From: Amycolatopsis tolypomycina
Lineage (GTDB): Bacteria; Actinomycetota; Actinomycetes; Mycobacteriales; Pseudonocardiaceae
Assembly (NCBI RefSeq): GCF_900105945.1
Contig: NZ_FNSO01000004.1
Coordinates: forward strand, 1,178,001-1,242,000
Length of the DNA: 64,000 bases
Reading direction: 5' to 3'
The notes beneath the pieces are model-generated. The model saw only the letters and a program-made list of their open reading frames with translations, had not been told where the DNA came from and did no database searches. Shown one piece after another: positions 10,988 through 19,373 of the stretch. The position numbers and the translations under genes were made by a program. The stretch's first letter is position 1, and each line of letters opens with the position of its first letter.

Positions 10988-11017
10988 GGATGAATCCTGC
11001 CATATCGGGCGGGATCG

Positions 11018-11076
11018 AATGTCATGAAAGAGTCGTTCATGACGCCTGACGCCATGAACGACTCTTTCATGACATT
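11018..11076. promoter_or_regulatory. 24-bp perfect inverted repeat upstream of the AraC gene
   Basis: The two 24-base arms (11018-11041 and 11053-11076) are exact complements separated by 11 bases. Each arm contains CATGAA and AAAGAGTCGTT-type sequence that is itself partly palindromic. It is AT-richer than its surroundings and lies 31 bp upstream of the AraC GTG. It could be an operator or a mobile intergenic palindrome. Confidence 0.65.
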
Positions 11077-11090
11077 CGGTGGCGGGTGAG

Positions 11091-11122: not shown

Positions 11123-11382
11123 CCGTGCACCGGTGCTGCTTGACCGTGGAGCTCCTTCCGGCGGCATACCCTTCCGCCGGAACGACCTCCACGGCCCGTG
11201 CGCCGCGGCGGAGTGACCCACCGTGGCGCTCGACCCCGGGCCCCCGCCCGGTGCGCCGGAAGAAGGTCACCCCGGGGGCGTCGGGTTCCCTCGGGATGAC
11301 CTTCTCCTGGCCCGCCGGGCGCTCGGTCTGGCGACCCCGACCGGGGTTCTACGGACGCGAGGCGGGCTGGGGGACGTTTGGG

Positions 11383-11428
11383 GCCGGCCACCACACCACC
11401 CAGCCGCGGAGGGGGCGTGGTGGCCGGC
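11383..11428. terminator. 12-bp stem-loop after the flavin reductase gene
   Basis: GCCGGCCACCAC (11383-11394) is the exact complement of GTGGTGGCCGGC (11417-11428), 45 bp beyond the stop of the minus-strand flavin reductase gene. It is a likely 3' end for that operon. Confidence 0.55.
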
Positions 11429-11472: not shown

Positions 11473-12915
11473 CTACCTCCCCATCGGGATGGCCATGGTC
11501 GGCAGCGCCGCGCCGGGCTGCGCGGCGAACGCCGTGGTCGGCGGGGCCGGCAGGGACTGCGCGGGGAACGCCGTCGTCGGGATGTCGTTGGCGAACTCGC
11601 TCTCGAACTCGCGCTCGAAGGCCTGGTGGTCGAAGCCGCTGTCGAACTCCGGCGGCACGTCGGCCGCCAGCGCGGCGAGCGACGGCTCGACCGTGGGCAC
11701 CTCGGGCACCTCCGCGACGGGCGCGGGCTCCGGCTCCGGCACGTAGTCGGGCGCGGGGAGACGCCGGTCCAGCTCGAGCATCCAGTCGAGCATCGCCCGC
11801 GGCTTGTTCCAGCACGAGACGCCGATGAGCCTGCCGTCGCGGACGAAGCCGGTGATGCCGTCGGCCAGCGACACGGTGTCCTCGGCCAGCGACGGCATCC
11901 CGCACATCTGCAGCCGCGTGTCGTACAGCGTCGACCAGGCGCGGGGGAGCGGGGTGAACGGCACGGCGCTGGAGCGGCCCGCGAGCAGGTTGTCCGCCGC
12001 GTGCCGGGCCGACTCGACGGCGTTGATCCAGTGCTCGACCCGCCGCGGGGTCTCGTCGAAGCGCAGGTTCGGCCAGCGCGCGATGTCGCCGGCGATGACG
12101 ACGTCGGAGGCGCCCTCGGCGAACAGCTTCGAGTCGCAGAGGACGCCGTCGCTGATGTCGAGGCCGGAGCCGCGCATCCAGTCGACCGACGGGACGCTGC
12201 CGATGGCGAGCACGACGACGCTGGCGACCAGCAGCTGGTTGTTCGTCAGGTGCAGCCCGACGGTGTCCTTCGTGCTGATCCAGTGCCGGACTTCGCTGCG
12301 CATCGCCAGGTTCGCGCGGTGCTCGTGGTGCTCCTCGACGATGCCGCTGGAGACGGCCTCGCCGAAGCGGTGCAGCGGCGCCTTCGCGTGCCCGATCAGG
12401 GTGACGTCCCGGCCGATGTGCCGCATGCTCGCGGCGAACTCGTTGCCGATCAGGCCGGCGCCGATCACGACGGCCGGTTTCTTGCTCGCGTTGAGGCAGC
12501 GCCGCACGGCCATCGAGTCCTCGACCGTGCGCAGGATCCGCACCCGCGGGTCGTGCCGCGGCGCCCCGGGCAGGTGCCGCGGGTAGACGCCGGTCGCGGC
12601 GATCAGGCCGTCGTACCAGAGGGATTCGCCGCCGGGCAGGTGCACGACCCGCTCGGTGGTGTCGAGGTGCGTGACCCGTGCCCCGAGCCGCCAGTGCACG
12701 TCGAGGTCCGGCAGGTAGTGCGAAAGGCCCACGTCGCTGGGCCGTTCGGTCCCCATCACCAGCGCCTTGGAGACCATCGGCCGGTGGTAGGGCCGCCGGG
12801 CCTCGTCACCGATCAGCACGATCTCGCCGTCGAACTTCTGTTCCCGGAGGCGTTCCGCGGCACGCAGCCCGGCGACGCCCGCACCGACGATGACGATCCG
12901 GTCGCCGTCAGCCAT
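11473..12915 (-). CDS. Ferredoxin reductase-like FAD/NAD(P) oxidoreductase with a long acidic tail
   Basis: A 480-residue pyridine-nucleotide-disulphide-type oxidoreductase. It has an N-terminal FAD Rossmann motif (IVIVGAGVAGLRAAERLR), the YHRPMVSK region, a second dinucleotide motif for NAD(P)H (VVIGAGLIGNEFA, about residue 145) and the IAGDIARWPN FAD-binding segment near residue 300. The catalytic part ends near residue 395. An extra tail of about 85 residues, rich in Pro, Glu and Ala, ends in repeats around PTTAFPAQ/PTTAFAAQ and is not part of the family. It overlaps the ferredoxin gene by 8 bp. It probably passes electrons from NAD(P)H to that ferredoxin. Confidence 0.85.
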   Translation of the reverse strand: MADGDRIVIVGAGVAGLRAAERLREQKFDGEIVLIGDEARRPYHRPMVSKALVMGTERPSDVGLSHYLPDLDVHWRLGARVTHLDTTERVVHLPGGESLWYDGLIAATGVYPRHLPGAPRHDPRVRILRTVEDSMAVRRCLNASKKPAVVIGAGLIGNEFAASMRHIGRDVTLIGHAKAPLHRFGEAVSSGIVEEHHEHRANLAMRSEVRHWISTKDTVGLHLTNNQLLVASVVVLAIGSVPSVDWMRGSGLDISDGVLCDSKLFAEGASDVVIAGDIARWPNLRFDETPRRVEHWINAVESARHAADNLLAGRSSAVPFTPLPRAWSTLYDTRLQMCGMPSLAEDTVSLADGITGFVRDGRLIGVSCWNKPRAMLDWMLELDRRLPAPDYVPEPEPAPVAEVPEVPTVEPSLAALAADVPPEFDSGFDHQAFEREFESEFANDIPTTAFPAQSLPAPPTTAFAAQPGAALPTMAIPMGR

Positions 12916-13138
12916 CGAGGTCCCCTCTCATCACGACCGCCTGCATCGGGCAGCAGCGGGCGGCCATCTTCGCCTGTTCGATGGTGGTTTCGTCCAGCAG
13001 CCGCGTGTGGAAGCGCAGGCGGCCGTCCTGGCCGAGGTCGAACACGTCCGGTGCCTCCATGGCGCAGATGCCGTAGAGCTCGCACCGGTCGTTGTCGACG
13101 CTGATCCGGGGGCCGGCCCCGGGCAAGCGGAAAGGCAT
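12908..13138 (-). CDS. Small [3Fe-4S]-type ferredoxin
   Basis: A 76-residue ferredoxin of the actinobacterial P450-partner type. It has RISVDNDRCELYGICAMEAPDVF at the N-terminus and MAARCCPMQAV near the C-terminus. The C-x5-C spacing followed by a distal CP motif gives three good ligands, as in 3Fe-4S ferredoxins. It lies between the membrane cytochrome gene (1 bp apart) and the reductase gene (8-bp overlap) in one operon. Such ferredoxins usually serve P450s, but no P450 is nearby and the membrane bis-haem protein is the obvious partner. Confidence 0.88.
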   Translation of the reverse strand: MPFRLPGAGPRISVDNDRCELYGICAMEAPDVFDLGQDGRLRFHTRLLDETTIEQAKMAARCCPMQAVVMRGDLDG

Positions 13139-13139
13139 G

Positions 13140-13757
13140 TCAGGCCACCTGTTCTTCCACGAGGCCGATGCGCTCGAGCGTGCGGGCCGGCATGAACCGC
13201 AGCATCGACACCGTCACGGCCGGCACGAGCAGCGTGATGCCGCCCAGCCAGGTCACCGAGAGGTGACCGTTCGCGATGGCGCCGAACCAGGAGTGGATCG
13301 CGATCAGGCCGACGGCCGGGTACGCGCAGCGGTGCAGCCACAGCCAGCGCCGGTAGGACGTGAAGCGCTGCAGGCCGGCGGTGAGGAAGATGGCGAACAT
13401 GACCTCGAAGCCGACCATGCCGGCGATGTGGCGCGCCTCCTGCCCGGAACCGAACGGGATGAACATGTAGGCGAAGCTGTACGGCTGGACCGTCAGGTAG
13501 GTGAAGCCCAGCGCGTGGACGAGACCGAAGATGATCGTCGCGGTGGCCAGCACCATGTGCGTGCTGCGCAGGCCCTTCCGGCCGGTGACCGAGCGGATCC
13601 AGCCGGTCGCGGTGAGCACGCCCCAGGTGAGCGTCAGCATCGCGGCCCCGTAGGACGTCCGGGCGGCGAAGGCCGCGAGGCCGCGGGCCGCCGGGTCGGT
13701 CTTCGGCTGGAACTGCTGGGTGAGGAAGATCGTTGCGTCGTGCCAGGTCTCAACCAT
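13140..13757 (-). CDS. Ferric-reductase-like bis-haem membrane cytochrome
   Basis: A 205-residue protein with about six hydrophobic segments. The histidines are spaced as in the ferric reductase/NADPH oxidase/STEAP haem domain. One helix has H-x13-H (from RSTH to LVH) and a later one H-x12-H (from WLHR to IAIH), enough for two stacked b-type haems. The cytoplasmic FAD/NADPH domain of NOX enzymes is absent, but a separate ferredoxin and flavin reductase follow in the operon. I start it at MVETWHD (13757, after GGGGG); it overlaps the DUF4142 gene by 8 bp. It probably moves electrons across the membrane; the acceptor is unknown. Confidence 0.8.
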   Translation of the reverse strand: MVETWHDATIFLTQQFQPKTDPAARGLAAFAARTSYGAAMLTLTWGVLTATGWIRSVTGRKGLRSTHMVLATATIIFGLVHALGFTYLTVQPYSFAYMFIPFGSGQEARHIAGMVGFEVMFAIFLTAGLQRFTSYRRWLWLHRCAYPAVGLIAIHSWFGAIANGHLSVTWLGGITLLVPAVTVSMLRFMPARTLERIGLVEEQVA

Positions 13758-14547
13758 GGCTACCCCCGGTTCTCGCAGCGGCCGGCCGGGACGTCCTGGC
13801 GCGGCCACGGTTGCTCTTGATCTGGCGCAGCCCGTAGAACAGCCCGCCGCCGAGCAGCAGGAACAGTGCCCCCACCACGGCGATCTGCGACGTGTCGAGG
13901 CCGAGCTGGATCCCCGTCGGCGCCGCGGTGGTCGAGACGACCGGGGCGGGCAGCGCGGTGTAGTCGACCATGCCGGTGCTCTCGAGCATCGTCATGTGCC
14001 GCATGACGGCCTGGTTGCCGACGGTCGCGAAGGCCCGCACGTCGTCGTTGCGGGTGCCGGCGCGCAGCTGCGCGAGGACGGCGAACACCGCGCCGTGCGC
14101 GGCACGCAGCCGGTTGGCGAAGACGCGGTCGAACTCCGGGCCGGGGGCGGCGGCCATCTGCTCGGCGAGCCAGCCGCGCTGTTCCTCGGAGGGCTGGTCG
14201 GGGACCGGCGAGTTCAGCTTCTGCGAGAGGGCGCGGGTCGCCACGTCGAGGCGGCCGTGGTCCATCATGATCGCGAAGCCGACCTTCTGGACGATCGGGC
14301 TGCCCTTCTCCATCGCCATCATGCCCGACGGCATCTCCCACAGGCCGGCCTGGCGGACCTTGGTCAGCAGCACCGCGTCGGTGTCGGAGATCGCGGTCGA
14401 GCCCGTCTGGGCGAGCGAGGCCGAGCCCGGGGCGAGCAGGGCCAGCACCAGCGCCACGACGAAGAGGATCCGGACCAGCGGCCGGGACCGCTCGAGGACG
14501 GACGGGGGATCGAAGTCGAACCCGGCCAGATCAGAGACCGAACGCAT
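13750..14547 (-). CDS. DUF4142-domain exported membrane protein
   Basis: A 265-residue protein. An N-terminal signal/anchor (RILFVVALVLALLAPGSASLAQ, residues 26-48) precedes a helical DUF4142 domain: TDAVLLTKVRQAGLWEMPSG, IMMDHGRLDVATRALSQKLN, then FDRVFANRLRAAHGAVF and a MRHMTMLES segment. A C-terminal membrane segment (IAVVGALFLLLGGGLFYGL) with a basic tail follows. DUF4142 is a ferritin-like all-helical domain of unknown function with conserved histidines that could bind metal. It overlaps the upstream lipoprotein gene by 17 bp and the downstream cytochrome gene by 8 bp, so it belongs to the same complex or pathway. Confidence 0.8.
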   Translation of the reverse strand: MRSVSDLAGFDFDPPSVLERSRPLVRILFVVALVLALLAPGSASLAQTGSTAISDTDAVLLTKVRQAGLWEMPSGMMAMEKGSPIVQKVGFAIMMDHGRLDVATRALSQKLNSPVPDQPSEEQRGWLAEQMAAAPGPEFDRVFANRLRAAHGAVFAVLAQLRAGTRNDDVRAFATVGNQAVMRHMTMLESTGMVDYTALPAPVVSTTAAPTGIQLGLDTSQIAVVGALFLLLGGGLFYGLRQIKSNRGRARTSRPAAARTGGSHG

Positions 14548-15133
14548 TTTGCCTCCACTCGTCCTGGGTCAGCGTGATCTTCTTGCCGTCCGGCGCGATC
14601 GGGTACCAGGCCTGGTCGAGGCCCTGGCCGGAGGTGTCGGCCGGTTCCTGGTCGCCGGTGAAGTGGTAGAGGGGCCACCCGGCGAGGGTGAGCTGCTGGC
14701 TGCCGTCGTCGCGGGTGATCTCGCCGATCAGCGACTGGTCGACGTCGACCGGCGGCAGGTTGCCGCCCGCCTTGACCGGGATCCACTTGGTCGCGCACGC
14801 ACCGGTGCAGTTCGAGCGCGAGGGGTTGGGGGTGTCCCGGTCGTACCGGTAGATGGTGTAGCCGGTCCCGTCGACGAGCAGGAGCCCGAGGTCGAACGTC
14901 CTCGCGCCCCTGAGCTGGCTCTTCGCCGGGTTGTTCGGGTCGGCGGTGATGCCCTGCGGCATCGGCAGGACGACCTGCCCCTGCTGCTGCATGCCGGGCA
15001 TCTGCATGCCGGCGGCGCCGCCGGCCGCGTAACCACCACCCGTGGTGGCCGCGCCGGCGGTACAGGCGGTGAGCAAGGCGAGTGCGGTGAGGCACACGGC
15101 GGCGGGGACCACCGGGCGGGGAATGCGGATCAC
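14531..15133 (-). CDS. COG4315-type lipoprotein with one 'secreted repeat'
   Basis: About 200 residues. The GTG at 15133 (GGAGG a few bases before) begins a lipoprotein signal peptide with the lipobox LLTAC. A Gly/Met/Gln-rich linker (MQMPGMQQQGQ) follows, then a PF03640-type repeat: GTGYTIYRYDRDTPNPSRSNCTG-CATKWIP and LAGWPLYHF. The repeat carries a C-x3-C pair. An upstream ATG (15151) is the alternative start. It is the first gene of the redox operon and is preceded by the predicted sigma-dependent promoter at 15274-15301. Similar repeats make up the lipoprotein at 18459. The family's function is unknown. Confidence 0.82.
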   Translation of the reverse strand: MIRIPRPVVPAAVCLTALALLTACTAGAATTGGGYAAGGAAGMQMPGMQQQGQVVLPMPQGITADPNNPAKSQLRGARTFDLGLLLVDGTGYTIYRYDRDTPNPSRSNCTGACATKWIPVKAGGNLPPVDVDQSLIGEITRDDGSQQLTLAGWPLYHFTGDQEPADTSGQGLDQAWYPIAPDGKKITLTQDEWRQNAFGL

Positions 15134-15273
15134 TGCTCCTCCGTGGGGCATGACTACGCGCTGTTGCCGGTAGTGCAACGGAAAAGGGCGCGAAAGATCC
15201 ACAGTGGACATTCGGTCCGGAGTGGATGCGGAGCGTTGCGGGGGACAACGCCTGGTCGGGGTCTTCGGTAGGG

Positions 15274-15301
15274 GATACGGACACGGTCCGGAAACGGTTC
15301 A
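15274..15301 (-). promoter_or_regulatory. Predicted ECF-sigma promoter for the redox operon
   Basis: Read on the minus strand, TGAACC (15301-15296) is separated by 16 bases from CGTATC (15279-15274). This fits the SigK/SigL-type consensus TGAACC-N16-18-CGT. The same hexamers with the same spacing occur before the DUF1996 gene, and both are followed by CCC. The lipoprotein start is about 140 bases downstream. Confidence 0.72.
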
Positions 15302-15364: not shown

Positions 15365-15928
15365 ATGTCCCGCGTGGGACGGCACACCCGAGCGCTGAGA
15401 TCCGTCGATCAGGAAGTCGTCGAGCCCGGCGACGGCCACGACGATCTGGCGAAGGCGCTCTACCAGGAATTCGGCGGGTCGCTGATGGCGTTCGCGCTGC
15501 GGCTGACCGGGCACGACCGGCAGTGGGCCGAAGACGTCGTCCAGGAGACCCTGATCAAGGCGTGGCGCAACGCCGACAAGCTCGACCGCCAGCCGGAGAT
15601 GCTCCGTGCCTGGTTGTTCACGGTGGCCCGGCGTATCGTGATCGACGGCTGGCGCAGCCGCAGCGTCCGGCCCCAGGAGCTCGAGGAGATCGAATCCGAC
15701 GCGATCGCGGTGTCCGACGAATCGGACCGGACGCTCGCCGCGATGATCGTTTACGAGGCGCTGCAGGGCCTTTCGCCCGAGCAGCGGGAGGCCATCCAGC
15801 AGACCTACCTGCGCGATCGGACCGTGAACGAGGTCGCGGCGACCCTCGGGGTGCCCCCGGGCACCGTCAAGTCCCGCATCCACCACGCCGTCCGCGCCCT
15901 GCGCCGTGCCCTGCGCGAGCGGGGGTGA
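15365..15928 (+). CDS. ECF sigma factor, SigL/SigK-like
   Basis: A 187-residue group 4 sigma factor. Region 2 is DDLAKALYQEFGGSLMAFALRLTGHDRQWAEDVVQETLIKAWR, with the RAWLFTVARRIVIDGWRSR end of region 2.4. Region 4 is YEALQGLSPEQREAIQQTYLRDRTVNEVAATLGVPPGTVKSRIHHAVRALR. The composition is that of mycobacterial SigL/SigK. It is transcribed divergently from the redox operon and overlaps or abuts the anti-sigma gene, as is normal for ECF pairs. I found no TGAACC-type promoter on its own strand in 15134-15364, so autoregulation is not evident. Confidence 0.92.
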   Translation: MSRVGRHTRALRSVDQEVVEPGDGHDDLAKALYQEFGGSLMAFALRLTGHDRQWAEDVVQETLIKAWRNADKLDRQPEMLRAWLFTVARRIVIDGWRSRSVRPQELEEIESDAIAVSDESDRTLAAMIVYEALQGLSPEQREAIQQTYLRDRTVNEVAATLGVPPGTVKSRIHHAVRALRRALRERG

Positions 15929-15935
15929 ACTGAGC

Positions 15936-16718
15936 GTGGCCGGATCACCGCACACCGACGTCGCCGCCTACGTGCTCGGCGTCCTCAGCGAGGCCGAGAA
16001 CTCCCAGTTCGAAGCCCACCTGATGAACTGCCCGCACTGCCAGCTCGACCTGATCGAGCTCTACCAGCTGCCGGACGTCCTCGACCTGGTGAAGCGCAGC
16101 TGGCCGGAGCCGCCGATGCCGGCGCCCAGCCCGCGCACGCTGTCGCCGGGCCCGCGGGTGCTGCGCGGCCTCATGGAAGAGGCCGCGGTGAAGCGTCGCC
16201 GCCGTCGCCGGATCGGCATCCTCGCCGGGGCCGCGGCCGCGGCGGCCGTCATCGCCGGCCCGCTGGTGACCCTCGCGGTCCGGCCGGCCGACGCCGTCCC
16301 GCCTGCCTCGCTGGCCGCCCCGAGCACCAAGCAGCCGCCGCCGAGCGTCCTGGCGACGTCCACCCCGCCGCCCGGGGGTGCCCAGGGCCAGCCCGGGGGC
16401 GGCCAGACCTACGGCCGCGGCAGCGGCGGGTCCGCCGTCAGCGCCCTGATCACCGTTTTGCCGGTGGAGTGGGGCAGCCGCGTCGAGCTCGAGCTGCGCG
16501 GGATCGTCGGGCCGGTGAAGTGCCAGCTGGTCGCCATCCCGGAGACCGGCGCCGAGCGCGTCGTCTCCAGCTGGTCGGTGCCGCCCAAGGGGTTCGGCAT
16601 CCCCGGCTCGCCCGAACCGTTGCGCCTGCAGGGTTCGGTCTCCCTGGCGATGGACCAGATCAACCGGTTCGAGGTCCGCGGCGAAGACGGCACGGTCCTC
16701 GTCGTCGTCCAGCGCTGA
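15936..16718 (+). CDS. Anti-sigma factor with a zinc-binding HxxxCxxC motif
   Basis: A 260-residue membrane anti-sigma factor. The N-terminal ZAS domain (DVAAYVLGVLSEAENSQFEAHLMNCPHCQLDL) holds H-x3-C-x2-C. One membrane segment follows (IGILAGAAAAAAVIAGPLVTLAV, about residues 92-114), then a Pro/Gly-rich spacer and an extracytoplasmic domain with two Cys-poor beta-rich stretches ending VEVRGEDGTVLVVVQR. This is the RslA/RskA architecture: the cytoplasmic part sequesters the sigma factor and the outer part senses a signal. GTG 15936 has GGGGG upstream. It starts 7 bp after the sigma gene, so the two are co-expressed. Confidence 0.87.
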   Translation: MAGSPHTDVAAYVLGVLSEAENSQFEAHLMNCPHCQLDLIELYQLPDVLDLVKRSWPEPPMPAPSPRTLSPGPRVLRGLMEEAAVKRRRRRRIGILAGAAAAAAVIAGPLVTLAVRPADAVPPASLAAPSTKQPPPSVLATSTPPPGGAQGQPGGGQTYGRGSGGSAVSALITVLPVEWGSRVELELRGIVGPVKCQLVAIPETGAERVVSSWSVPPKGFGIPGSPEPLRLQGSVSLAMDQINRFEVRGEDGTVLVVVQR

Positions 16719-16811: not shown

Positions 16812-16839
16812 TGAACCTCAGGGCGCTCATGTCCGTATC
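16812..16839 (+). promoter_or_regulatory. Predicted ECF-sigma promoter for the DUF1996/lipoprotein operon
   Basis: TGAACC (16812-16817), a 16-base spacer and CGTATC (16834-16839) repeat the hexamers and spacing found before the divergent redox operon. The sequence around the -10 (TGTCCGTATCCCC) is also shared. The DUF1996 start is 154 bases downstream, so a long leader is expected. Confidence 0.72.
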
Positions 16840-16993: not shown

Positions 16994-18415
16994 ATGGCCC
17001 GGAATTCTCGGCCCCCCGTGACGGGCAAACACCGCGTTGCCCGCCGAACCAAGATCGCGATGGGGGCGATCGGCCTGGCGATCGCCGTCGGCGCGCTCGC
17101 TGTCGCGGTCACCACGGGCCGCACGGGCGAAGCCAGCGCGGACGCTGCGGACCCCTCGCTCTACATCGACATCAACAAGGTTCCCGCCGGCTCCAACGTG
17201 AACGCGGCTGTGAAGAACAAGGGTGCGAAGGGTTCGTTCACCGTCGACTGTGGAACGAACGCGGACGGCGCGCACCACAACCCGGACAACTTCATCGCGC
17301 AGCCCGGGATCAAGAACGGCGCCCAGCACCTGCACGACTACGTCGGCAACGTGACCACCGACGCCGATTCCAGCTTGAAGAGCCTGCTCGCCGGCGACAC
17401 CACCTGCAAGAACGGTGACCAGTCGGCGTACTTCTGGCCCGTCATCCGCATCGACAAGGAAGACGAGGCGACGAACGAGGGCAAGAACCAGAAGGCCAAG
17501 CAGGACCAGCAGGGCAAGACCGGCGACGTCCAGGAGGACAAGAGCGGGCAGGACGCCAAGGACGCGCAGGACCAGAACCGGCGCGAGCGCCAGGGTCAGG
17601 GCGGCGGCCGGGCGGGCCTGAGCGCCCAGCAGCAGGGTGACCAGAACGACGGGCAGCAGCAGGACGGCCAGCGTCGTCAGCGCAACCAGGAGCAGAACAA
17701 CCAGCAGCAGGACCAGAACCGGGACGGCCAGAACCAGGACCAGAACCAGCAGCAGGACCAGAACAACCAGCAGAACCAGCAGAACCAGCAGGACAAGAAC
17801 AAGAACCAGCAGAACCAGAACCAGGGTCAGCAGGAGGAAGAGCTCGGCGGCCCGCAGGGCGAGAACGAAGAGGTCGGCGACAACGACGGCGAGATCGTCG
17901 AGCCGGAGTCCGCGGAGCTGAAGTTCATCGGCGGTGGCGCGCAGCAGGTCGTCGCGATGCCGCTCGGGCTGAAGATCCTCTACGGTGACGCCAAGCAGAG
18001 CACGAACGGCCCGAAGAACGCCCGGCCCAGCTGGACCTGCACCGGCTTCGAAGACCGGCTGACCGACAAGTACCCGATCTGCCCGCAGGGCAGCAAGGTC
18101 GAGCGGATCCACGCGTTCCCGAACTGCTGGGACGGCAAGAACACCGACAGCGCGGACCACCGCAGCCACATCGTGTTCGCCGACCAGCAGGGCAAGTGCC
18201 CGCAGGGGTTCAAGAACGTGCCCCAGCTGCAGGTCACCCTGGTCTACGACATCCCGCAGGACGTCCAGCAGAACAAGCAGTACAAAGTGGACGCCTTCGC
18301 GCAGGAAGAGCACAACCCGCGTTCTGACCACGACGACTTCGCGAACGTGATGAGCAAGCAGATCATGGGCCGCCTGGTCAACTGCGTCAACTCCGGCAAG
18401 ACCTGCGCCGAATAA
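16994..18415 (+). CDS. Secreted DUF1996 protein split by a Q/N/D-rich low-complexity insert
   Basis: A 473-residue exported protein. After a basic N-terminus comes a signal/anchor (IAMGAIGLAIAVGALAVAVTTG). The first part of a DUF1996 domain follows, with the conserved CGTNADGAHHNPDN, QHLHDYVGN and YFWPVIR motifs. Residues about 160-300 are a low-complexity insert of Gln, Asn, Asp, Lys and Arg. The DUF1996 domain then resumes (LKILYGDAKQ, WTCTGFEDR, IHAFPNCWDGKN, HIVFADQQGKCP) to the end. Actinobacterial DUF1996 proteins are secreted and of unknown function; the HxH pair could bind metal. The next gene is a redox-type lipoprotein 43 bp on. Confidence 0.85.
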   Translation: MARNSRPPVTGKHRVARRTKIAMGAIGLAIAVGALAVAVTTGRTGEASADAADPSLYIDINKVPAGSNVNAAVKNKGAKGSFTVDCGTNADGAHHNPDNFIAQPGIKNGAQHLHDYVGNVTTDADSSLKSLLAGDTTCKNGDQSAYFWPVIRIDKEDEATNEGKNQKAKQDQQGKTGDVQEDKSGQDAKDAQDQNRRERQGQGGGRAGLSAQQQGDQNDGQQQDGQRRQRNQEQNNQQQDQNRDGQNQDQNQQQDQNNQQNQQNQQDKNKNQQNQNQGQQEEELGGPQGENEEVGDNDGEIVEPESAELKFIGGGAQQVVAMPLGLKILYGDAKQSTNGPKNARPSWTCTGFEDRLTDKYPICPQGSKVERIHAFPNCWDGKNTDSADHRSHIVFADQQGKCPQGFKNVPQLQVTLVYDIPQDVQQNKQYKVDAFAQEEHNPRSDHDDFANVMSKQIMGRLVNCVNSGKTCAE

Positions 18416-18458: not shown

Positions 18459-19373
18459 ATGAACCGTGCTCGCCCGGTTGCCGCGCTGCCGCTCGCCACG
18501 GCCGGACTCGCGCTGGTCGCGGCCTGCGGGACCAACCCGTACGCCACGTCCGGTGCCGGTCAGCCGCTGGTGCTCGGCGCGCAGCCGGCGAGCACGGTTC
18601 CGGCCGGCACCGCCGCCCGGCTGATATCGTCCACAGTGGACGGGCTGGGCACGGTGCTGGCCGACGCGGAAGGCCACACGCTCTACCGCTACGCGAAGGA
18701 CACGGCCAAGCCGGCCACGGCGAACTGCGCCGGCCCGTGCGCGACGACGTGGCCCCCGCTGGTGTCCGACGGCCCGGCGATCGCCGCCGGCGTCGACAGC
18801 GGGCTGGTGGGCTCGGTGACCCGGCCCGACGGCCGCAGGCAGGTGACGGTCGGCGGCTGGCCGGTCTACCGGTACGCGAAGGACACCGGCCCGGGCATCG
18901 CGCTCGGCAGCGACGTCAGCGCGGACTGGGCACCGATCACCCCGGCGGGCGCCAAGGCAAACCCCGCCACGATCGAGACGGCCGAGGTCGACGGTCTCGG
19001 CAAGATCCTCACGGACGCGGACGGCCGCACCCTGTACTTGTTCACCAAGGACGGCAAGGGATCGGCAAAATCCACCTGCAACGCGGCCTGCGCGGCCCAG
19101 TGGCCCCCGCTCCCGGCGGACGGCCGAGTGACCACGGCCGCGGGCATCGACCCGGCCCTGATCGGCCGCATCCGCAGAGCGGACGGAACAAGCCAGGTGA
19201 CAATAGGCGGCTGGCCGGTGTACACCCACGAAGAAGACGAGCCAGGCGAAGCAGCAGGCCAAGGAGCGGCCGGCGCCTGGTACGCCCTGGAGCCCAACGG
19301 CTGCAAGGCCGAGCCGGTGGCCCGAAGCCCGGAGATCCGGCAGGCACTGGCCCCCACATCCGGCGGGCAGTGA
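18459..19373 (+). CDS. COG4315-type lipoprotein with two tandem repeat domains
   Basis: A 304-residue lipoprotein with signal peptide and lipobox LVAAC (about residue 24). Two copies of the same domain follow. The first has TVDGLGTVLADAEGHTLYRY, NCAGPCATTWPPL and VGGWPVYRY. The second has EVDGLGKILTDADGRTLYLF, TCNAACAAQWPPL and IGGWPVYTH. Each copy has a C-x3-C pair before the WPP motif. Its single-repeat relative is encoded first in the divergent redox operon, and both operons share the predicted sigma promoter. GGAAGGAG lies before the ATG. A TCCACAGTGGA palindrome lies inside the gene, encoding STVD at the start of repeat 1. Confidence 0.85.
   Translation: MNRARPVAALPLATAGLALVAACGTNPYATSGAGQPLVLGAQPASTVPAGTAARLISSTVDGLGTVLADAEGHTLYRYAKDTAKPATANCAGPCATTWPPLVSDGPAIAAGVDSGLVGSVTRPDGRRQVTVGGWPVYRYAKDTGPGIALGSDVSADWAPITPAGAKANPATIETAEVDGLGKILTDADGRTLYLFTKDGKGSAKSTCNAACAAQWPPLPADGRVTTAAGIDPALIGRIRRADGTSQVTIGGWPVYTHEEDEPGEAAGQGAAGAWYALEPNGCKAEPVARSPEIRQALAPTSGGQ

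Follow-up and report, generated by a model that had tools for sequence, protein, structure and literature searches.

The minus-strand five-gene operon at positions 11473-15133 of the window, the whole 64,000-nucleotide stretch of DNA from the soil bacterium Amycolatopsis tolypomycina analysed here, carries a three-part core that probably works as a transmembrane electron-export device, made up of a ferredoxin reductase (FdR), a ferredoxin (Fd) and a ferric-reductase-domain (FRD) membrane protein. The earlier note had described five overlapping genes in operon order; all five, their order (lipoprotein, DUF4142 protein, FRD, Fd, FdR) and their span were recovered, but only three of the four junctions overlap (lipoprotein/DUF4142 by 17 nt, DUF4142/FRD by 8 nt, Fd/FdR by 8 nt), FRD and Fd being separated by a 1-nt gap. 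The operon genes are presumably co-transcribed, and the 43-nt gap between the DUF1996 gene and the second PF03640 lipoprotein gene suggests the same for that pair. The features of the cluster are as follows.

11473..12915, minus strand: FAD/NAD(P)H ferredoxin reductase (FdR), BphA4/putidaredoxin-reductase type; PF07992 E 3.1e-44
12908..13138, minus strand: single-cluster ferredoxin (Fd), C-x2-Y-x2-C...CP, predicted [3Fe-4S]; PF13459 E 4.5e-11
13140..13757, minus strand: bis-heme FRD membrane protein, five predicted TM helices; PF01794 31.7 bits
13750..14547, minus strand: DUF4142 protein; PF13628 E 1.7e-15
14531..15133, minus strand: PF03640 two-repeat lipoprotein with signal peptide, LTAC lipobox and one C-x3-C pair; PF03640 E 1.8e-27
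15198..15208, no strand: palindrome TCCACAGTGGA, a possible second operator, located in the predicted 5' leader and kept in sister intergenic regions
15275..15301, minus strand: SigL-type promoter TGAACC-N16-CGTAT of the five-gene operon, conserved motif
15365..15928, plus strand: divergent SigL-like ECF sigma factor; NF007227/PRK09645 196.8 bits; PDB 6dv9_F
15936..16718, plus strand: RslA-like membrane anti-sigma factor, zinc motif H-x3-C-x2-C; zf-HC2 E 5.7e-8; PDB 3hug_B
16812..16838, plus strand: second promoter TGAACC-N16-CGTAT, upstream of DUF1996, conserved motif
16994..18415, plus strand: secreted DUF1996 protein of the same predicted regulon; PF09362 E 2.8e-21
18459..19373, plus strand: second PF03640 lipoprotein, four repeats and two C-x3-C pairs; PF03640 E 1.9e-49 over four stretches

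The membrane component of the core is a member of the PF01794 superfamily (31.7 bits against a curated cut-off of 28) and, at 205 aa, consists of the FRD domain only, with no reductase domain on the same chain. The bis-heme spacing claimed for it was found as H67-x13-H81 and H142-x12-H155, paired in two TM helices, and none of the four histidines varied in an alignment of 80 sequences made up of the window and 79 loci, so the conservation among homologues that the earlier note had asked for holds. With helix limits drawn by eye, loops 1 and 3 and the C-terminus carry 4, 3 and 3 K/R residues and loops 2 and 4 carry none, while two K/R in the N-terminus, which is placed outside, go against this pattern; the charges would agree with an inside C-terminus, where relatives carry a fused Fd. 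A model of a natural FRD::Fd protein showed five long helices and a ferredoxin fold (mean pLDDT 71.9), and in Foldseek it matched STEAP1/2, NOX5 and SpNOX at E 0.04-0.1 with probability 1.00; all its matches, [3Fe-4S] ferredoxins included, fell at E 0.008-0.1 with probability 1.00, and at E 0.001 neither this model nor that from alignment A3 (see below) had a match. A sequence search of the PDB with the FRD protein gave no solved relative, and Pfam did not recognise the FRD part of L053 at E 0.001.

On the donor side, the Fd, assigned to its family by Pfam scan, carries C-x2-X-x2-C...CP, the single-cluster motif of class I P450-type ferredoxins. This motif was present in 75 of 76 sequences, with Y (58) or F (18) at X, the sole miss being cut by a contig end; from its three cysteines a [3Fe-4S] cluster is predicted. 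FdR is a Pyr_redox_2 flavoprotein (PF07992) of the BphA4/putidaredoxin-reductase kind, with 6tuk, 3lxd, 1q1r and 1d7y as solved relatives in the PDB. The operon had been interpreted as the FAD/NADPH domain of NOX and STEAP proteins split into ferredoxin plus reductase, which these assignments contradict: because FdR is of the BphA4 kind and not FNR-like as in NOX, the donor module is, to judge from family membership, a replacement, i.e. a different, P450-style donor pair and not a split NOX or STEAP domain.

Occurrence was assessed in 79 loci found by the FRD family, which are not 79 independent observations since most come from one family, Pseudonocardiaceae; contig ends truncate two loci (L061 and L011), and L085 and L136, with the same ORFs, are apparently one record. 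An Fd match was held by 76 of the 79 loci (75 under a 400-bp limit for 'near', the Fd of L086 lying beyond it) and FdR lay downstream of FRD in 75, whereas DUF4142 was found upstream in 68 and the lipoprotein in 38, with none upstream in the other 41. The co-occurrence of FRD, Fd and FdR is not due to chance. The co-occurrence expected of the five families was therefore borne out for these three and mostly for DUF4142, but all five stood together in only 38 of 79 loci, so that none of them can be said to require all the others; FRD, Fd and FdR make up the core, to which some lineages have added DUF4142 and the lipoprotein.

The core genes are also fused reciprocally, FRD::Fd in 32 of the 79 loci and Fd::FdR in 15 of 16 fetched Streptomycetaceae stretches and in L086, and these fusions suggest that the three proteins belong to a single device. 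In the FRD tree, the FRD::Fd rows are explained by one change, separate from the Fd::FdR rows, in a weakly supported clade (85/0; 87% of 200 bootstrap trees). FRD adjoins Fd/FdR in Pseudonocardiaceae, one Kribbella, Streptomycetaceae and a plasmid, whose copy may not be intact, as its FdR match changes frame towards the C-terminal part; a search with the plasmid FRD against 301 genomes (the family of G074) gave 0 matches at 1e-20, an empty result that says little. Some loci depart from the core: in two Crossiella loci (L071 and L076) FdR comes after FRD and a search for Fd found none, two Umezawaea loci (L053 and L054) have FRD::Fd without FdR in the locus, L087 has neither Fd nor FdR with FRD, and L134 lacks Fd and matches FdR only weakly (43 bits). 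In eight other genomes of the phylum sample, with at most eight candidates scored per genome, Fd adjoined one (L091) of the nine FRD matches listed, and no FdR was found beside these nine within stretches of 2.7 to 3.5 kb (larger for L091).

The sigma control attributed to the operon was upheld by a conserved promoter motif: GAACC-N15-18-CGTA occurred on the operon strand in all 59 short sigma/operon intergenic regions, two of the 61 regions being skipped as longer than 600 bases, versus 2 of 2827 random stretches. Such control is thus well supported; 18 of the 79 loci lack a divergent upstream SigL-like gene. DUF1996 promoters were found in 24 of 38 cases, and all 35 sister intergenic regions carried a palindrome of the TCCA-N3-TGGA type (N restricted). 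The sigma factor falls just below the cut-off of NCBIfam NF007227 (PRK09645; 196.8 bits vs 202), a family named SigL, and is accordingly called SigL-like; its best PDB match was Mtb SigL (6dv9_F, E 2.3e-31; next 9.7e-16), and that of the anti-sigma factor was RslA (3hug_B, E 5.2e-7; next 0.17), the start of the latter varying between the Pfam scan (ORF from 15906) and the PDB search (from 15939). The anti-sigma zinc motif was present in 56 of 58, the counted misses being L076 and L071; in L071 the motif sits outside the cut domain. The -10 element here, CG-T-A-T-C-C-C, agrees with that of Mtb SigL (CG, T-12 G-11 N C/A A G) in CG, T-12 and C-9, and has A instead of G at -11, the position of highest Mtb SigL specificity. 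In its own genome, TGAACC-N16-CGTA gave 7 matches vs 3 for the reversed control, and TGAACC-N15-18-CGTAT gave 7 vs 0 for the control. Both window sites face a gene start no more than ~200 bp away. The five N16 sites lying elsewhere in the genome were judged not to do so, as were two sites with a different spacer length, as checked with ORFs of at least 100 aa under a third-position-GC filter (all ORFs at one site). One site, C4:3886086, adjoins a second DUF1996 gene and is oriented away from it.

As to the outer-face proteins, a start of the operon lipoprotein at 15133, a GTG after GGAGGAG and followed by LTAC, fits better than the mechanical ORF to 15211, although the PF03640 scan used that longer start. 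The label COG4315 comes from the earlier note and had no mention in the open PMC literature, in which DUF4142 is named by 10 papers; the protein is below the cut-off of NF040526, the SCO0930 family (162.6 bits vs 275). The C-x3-C pairs reported for the lipoproteins are real, one in the operon lipoprotein and two in that at 18459-19373, and C-x3-C was present in 39 of 39 loci with a match to the lipoprotein profile. By eye, DUF4142 starts with a signal-like helix, continues as an exoplasmic helical bundle and ends in a membrane helix. Lipoprotein::DUF4142 fusions were seen in L029 and L036, the latter confirmed by Pfam. A joint lipoprotein and DUF4142 alignment (A2), in which the second half of the lipoprotein ran into DUF4142, was rejected and replaced by A3, whose model is weak (mean pLDDT 59, VIA-align Z only middling) and whose profile search gave no convincing solved relative. 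The Streptomycetaceae and plasmid stretches lack the accessory proteins, whose role in electron transfer is therefore only putative. For the proposed route from NAD(P)H to a surface acceptor, a path from NAD(P)H to the outside is still the best reading, but delivery to a lipoprotein acceptor at the surface is conjectural. Of the three DUF4142 histidines, two are missing from 14 to 15 of the 69 sequences in the alignment.

In the proposed mechanism, the BphA4-type FdR would take electrons from NAD(P)H and hand them singly to the [3Fe-4S] Fd, which would dock on the cytoplasmic face of FRD and reduce an inner heme, presumably held by H67/H142; the electron would then move to an outer heme (H81/H155) and on to an acceptor outside the membrane. 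The most likely route, with these cofactors, heme pairing and direction of flow, would thus be NAD(P)H, FAD, [3Fe-4S], inner heme, outer heme and outside acceptor. Amycolatopsis and its kin would have placed this core under a sigma factor of the SigL/RslA type and added the DUF4142 protein, the PF03640 lipoproteins and DUF1996 as outer-face accessories. Candidate acceptors are Fe(III) or Cu(II) ions, oxygen, and oxidised thiols of the envelope, reached via the C-x3-C lipoproteins.

Several explanations compete here. Reduction of Fe(III) or Cu(II) by the outer heme, for uptake or detoxification and with the lipoproteins and DUF4142 as metal-binding accessories, is plausible at somewhat less than an even chance. 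A relay for envelope repair, in which electrons reach the C-x3-C lipoproteins or other oxidised envelope proteins much as MsrQ feeds MsrP, is rather unlikely: it would account for two C-x3-C lipoproteins in the predicted regulon, the constancy of C-x3-C and the lipoprotein::DUF4142 fusions, and a passage of PMC2877774 describes RslA as redox sensitive, but the upstream lipoprotein is missing from 41 of 79 loci and none of the 16 Streptomycetaceae stretches matches the PF03640 profile, so it cannot be the general acceptor. An activity like that of NADPH oxidase, with O2 outside as acceptor and superoxide produced for signalling or defence, is unlikely; the bis-heme spacing and fold resemble NOX, and SpNOX is given in one part of PMC5676040 as a bacterial FRD protein able to use O2, yet the same part proposes other acceptors for bacterial members, O2 reduction by FRD proteins may not be their role, and redox-sensed control of the RslA type would better suit a protective one. 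That Fd and FdR, similar as they are to P450 partners, serve cytoplasmic P450s beside an unrelated FRD neighbour is very improbable and largely refuted, because FRD and Fd are fused (32 of 79 loci) and the genes adjoin in all the groups named above, from Pseudonocardiaceae to the plasmid.

Returning to electron export by the FRD, Fd and FdR core, we compared it with known systems. Class I P450 redox partners share the same kinds of [3Fe-4S]-type Fd and reductase and differ in that here these are fused to or beside an FRD membrane protein, with no P450 gene seen in the cluster. MsrQ (YedZ)/Fre likewise pairs a short FRD protein with a cytosolic flavoprotein donor on a chain of its own; however, Fre, which has an FNR-like fold, is a flavin reductase used with no iron-sulfur carrier, and the acceptor MsrP is a molybdoprotein, a type of partner that Pfam did not find among the nine cluster proteins. 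STEAP proteins, with their single membrane heme, match the FRD part in fold, whereas here there are two histidine pairs and no fused reductase. A heme in the membrane domain of STEAP, and a fused oxidoreductase domain in STEAP2-4, are described in a passage of PMC10659578. NOX, DUOX and SpNOX share the bis-heme FRD core with paired histidines and a cytosolic NAD(P)H flavoprotein that feeds the inner heme, but NOX has a fused FNR-like FAD/NADPH domain (in a passage of PMC5676040, which also proposes a split NOX-like layout for MsrQ/Fre) where a BphA4-type reductase and an iron-sulfur protein stand here. In the flavinylated MsrQ-like systems of Actinobacteria, a PF01794 protein likewise carries electrons out of the cell, with NAD(P)H often as their source, and is typically accompanied by genes for ApbE and an FMN-binding protein and in many cases by a PF00175 NAD domain, as a section of PMC8238504 has it; none of these three was found by Pfam among the nine cluster proteins. 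No report of the five-part composition was found among the matches listed from the open PMC literature, outside which most subscription journals lie. We tentatively suggest, with doubt outweighing confidence, a separate class of Actinomycetota exporter in which a NOX-like bis-heme protein would be driven by a [3Fe-4S] Fd and a flavoprotein of the glutathione-reductase superfamily, as a modular cassette, also on a plasmid, with regulators and outer-face proteins varying by lineage, and which in Amycolatopsis would power a surface relay of lipoprotein and DUF4142, under SigL control, that reduces metals or disulfides.

In a 2013 survey of FRD proteins (PMC3591440), the electron-transfer partners listed as fused to them are Fer2 ferredoxin, Rieske, DOMON and peroxidase-like domains; the pairing of a single-cluster [3Fe-4S]-type ferredoxin and a BphA4-type reductase is not among these. 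The cluster offers clues to what DUF4142, DUF1996 and the PF03640 lipoproteins may do, and a hint of a small SigL-type regulon outside Mycobacterium. If our reading is right, a P450-style ferredoxin pair can drive bis-heme FRD proteins, and actinomycetes would gain a further transmembrane electron path beside the NOX-type and flavinylated systems.

The earlier note had read a packed operon of five genes, and gene calls and Pfam assignments placed all five in the order it had proposed:

15133 to 11473, minus strand: five-gene operon, in order PF03640 lipoprotein, DUF4142 protein, bis-heme ferric-reductase-domain membrane protein (FRD, 205 aa), ferredoxin (Fd, 76 aa) and FAD reductase (FdR, 480 aa)

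Three of its junctions overlap (by 17, 8 and 8 nt), and the fourth leaves a gap of 1 nt. In the FRD, which is 99% identical to its A. rifamycinica counterpart, the four histidines that had been singled out beforehand (H67-x13-H81 and H142-x12-H155) were invariant in homologues, being kept in 80/80 aligned sequences, and the charge distribution, with helix limits drawn by eye, agreed with a cytoplasmic C-terminus. A structure model built for P0088, a natural FRD::Fd fusion protein, from an alignment of 51 rows (mean pLDDT 71.9) combined five long helices with a ferredoxin fold. Its matches included STEAP1/2, NOX5 and SpNOX and also [3Fe-4S] ferredoxins, with probability 1.00, the best E being only 0.008.

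On the donor side, the Fd carries three cysteines in the pattern C-x2-Y-x2-C...CP. Among its relatives of known structure are a P450 ferredoxin domain and ferredoxins of Pyrococcus, M. tuberculosis and Rhodopseudomonas. The FdR is a Pyr_redox_2 protein with BphA4, putidaredoxin reductase and their kin as nearest PDB entries, whereas the NOX reductase domain is FNR-like (PMC5676040). The donor module is therefore replaced rather than split, and the proposal that the FAD/NADPH domain of NOX and STEAP proteins had been divided into ferredoxin plus reductase does not hold.

Using profiles grown from the window genes, we annotated 79 loci that an FRD alignment had retrieved from public genomes. An Fd match was found in 76/79, FdR downstream of FRD in 75/79 and DUF4142 upstream in 68/79, but a PF03640 lipoprotein upstream in only 38/79; a SigL-like gene was present in 61, an anti-sigma gene in 58 and DUF1996 in 38. 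FRD and Fd were fused in 32/79 loci, which required one change on an FRD tree of 44 representatives, with support of only 85/0 and 87% of bootstrap trees, and lipoprotein::DUF4142 fusions occurred in two genomes. When 150 Streptomycetaceae genomes were queried with the FRD protein of locus L086, 36 matched at 1e-10, 27 of these at 1e-75 or better; stretches were retrieved around 16 of these 27 strong matches, an Fd::FdR fusion followed FRD in 15/16 of them, and no further gene family was common to more than 4/16 by our own gene calls. The Fd::FdR rows needed two changes on the tree, the second because L134 (Streptomycetaceae), in whose stretch no Fd was found, sits among them. On the Mycobacteroides abscessus plasmid pGD22-1 (L150, 8884-11817), FRD, Fd and FdR stand in a row, followed by a TauE/SafE gene and neighboured by BlaI/M56, MFS, MerR and cation P-type ATPase genes; the C-terminal match of this FdR lies in a different frame from the rest. 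Collectively, the co-occurrence counts, the fusions and the Streptomycetaceae and plasmid cassettes demonstrated that FRD, Fd and FdR form the core and that the outer proteins are accessories. The computations establish the parts of the chain and their linkage, and the earlier view of all five genes as one system stands for this core but not for the outer proteins.

The retrieved loci include exceptions: no Fd was found at L071 and L076 (Crossiella), no FdR at L053 and L054 (Umezawaea), and neither at L087 (Chloroflexota). In a distant actinobacterium (L151, 3997-4751) FRD is followed by a C-x2-Y-x2-C ferredoxin, with no FdR seen beside them. FRD was matched at 1e-20 in 69/200 Pseudonocardiaceae genomes (16/46 genera), and at 1e-6 in 9/396 genomes of a phylum-wide sample, A. 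tolypomycina included, the eight others being weak (best 4e-11). The A. tolypomycina genome holds a second copy (L099, C2:271000-287000) with DUF4142, FRD::Fd and FdR, and its own sigma pair divergent from them.

The sigma control suggested by the earlier note was supported by a conserved promoter motif, TGAACC-N16-CGTATCC, on the operon strand of aligned intergenic regions:

15301 to 15275, minus strand: SigL-type promoter motif of the operon (conserved motif)
from 16812, plus strand: SigL-type promoter motif of DUF1996 (conserved motif)

GAACC-N15-18-CGTA was present in 59/59 short sigma/operon intergenic regions, which are not independent, versus 2/59 on the opposite strand and 2/2827 random stretches of the same loci. 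The closest solved structures to the sigma and anti-sigma factors were Mtb SigL and RslA; the sigma factor scored slightly below the NCBIfam cut-off, and the -10 element has A at -11, where Mtb SigL prefers G (PMC6372665). The anti-sigma factor has an H-x3-C-x2-C motif of the RslA type, RslA being described as a zinc-binding, redox-sensitive anti-sigma factor (PMC2877774). A CRP-like TGTGA-N6-TCACA was found in 17/61 intergenic regions (e.g. those of L059, L056 and L048), mostly upstream of fused-type operons. The palindrome TCCACAGTGGA lies at 15198-15208 in the predicted leader, and at least one of its type occurred in 35/35 sister regions, 16 of which have two or more. Elsewhere, a second DUF1996 gene (L111, near C4:3886086 of the same genome) has a nearby SigL-type motif pointing the other way, and loci L023, L029 and L036 (~950-2850) carry an extra SigL-like/anti-sigma pair 3′ of DUF1996 and the four-repeat lipoprotein.

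Beyond the operon, a 21-bp repeat, CATGAACGACTCTTTCATGAC, forms an inverted pair at 11016-11078. It is a REP-like element, with 207 matches in the 10.36-Mb genome (≤2 mismatches; 100 forward, 107 reverse) versus 0 for the reversed pattern. Another three short-looped inverted repeats (18-34 nt, 82-90% complementary) lie in the gap 3′ of the operon at 11144-11428.

As to cofactors, direction and acceptor, we infer that electrons would pass from NAD(P)H to the FAD of FdR, then to the predicted [3Fe-4S] cluster of Fd, to the inner heme of FRD, and through the outer heme to an acceptor, for which iron or copper, oxygen and envelope thiols are candidates. Since the core also occurs without the lipoprotein, the general acceptor must be something else. 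For DUF4142, a role as general metal carrier is improbable, given that 14 to 15 of 69 aligned sequences have lost two of its three histidines. FRD proteins (PMC3591440), the split NOX-like pair formed by MsrQ and Fre (PMC5676040) and flavinylated MsrQ-like systems (PMC8238504) are already described. Searches of the PMC open-access library showed no paper in which a [3Fe-4S] ferredoxin and a BphA4-type reductase drive an FRD protein, in line with the earlier note, which knew of no described system of this composition. Relative to the known FRD systems, what would be new is the donor pair, a predicted [3Fe-4S] ferredoxin with a BphA4-type reductase.
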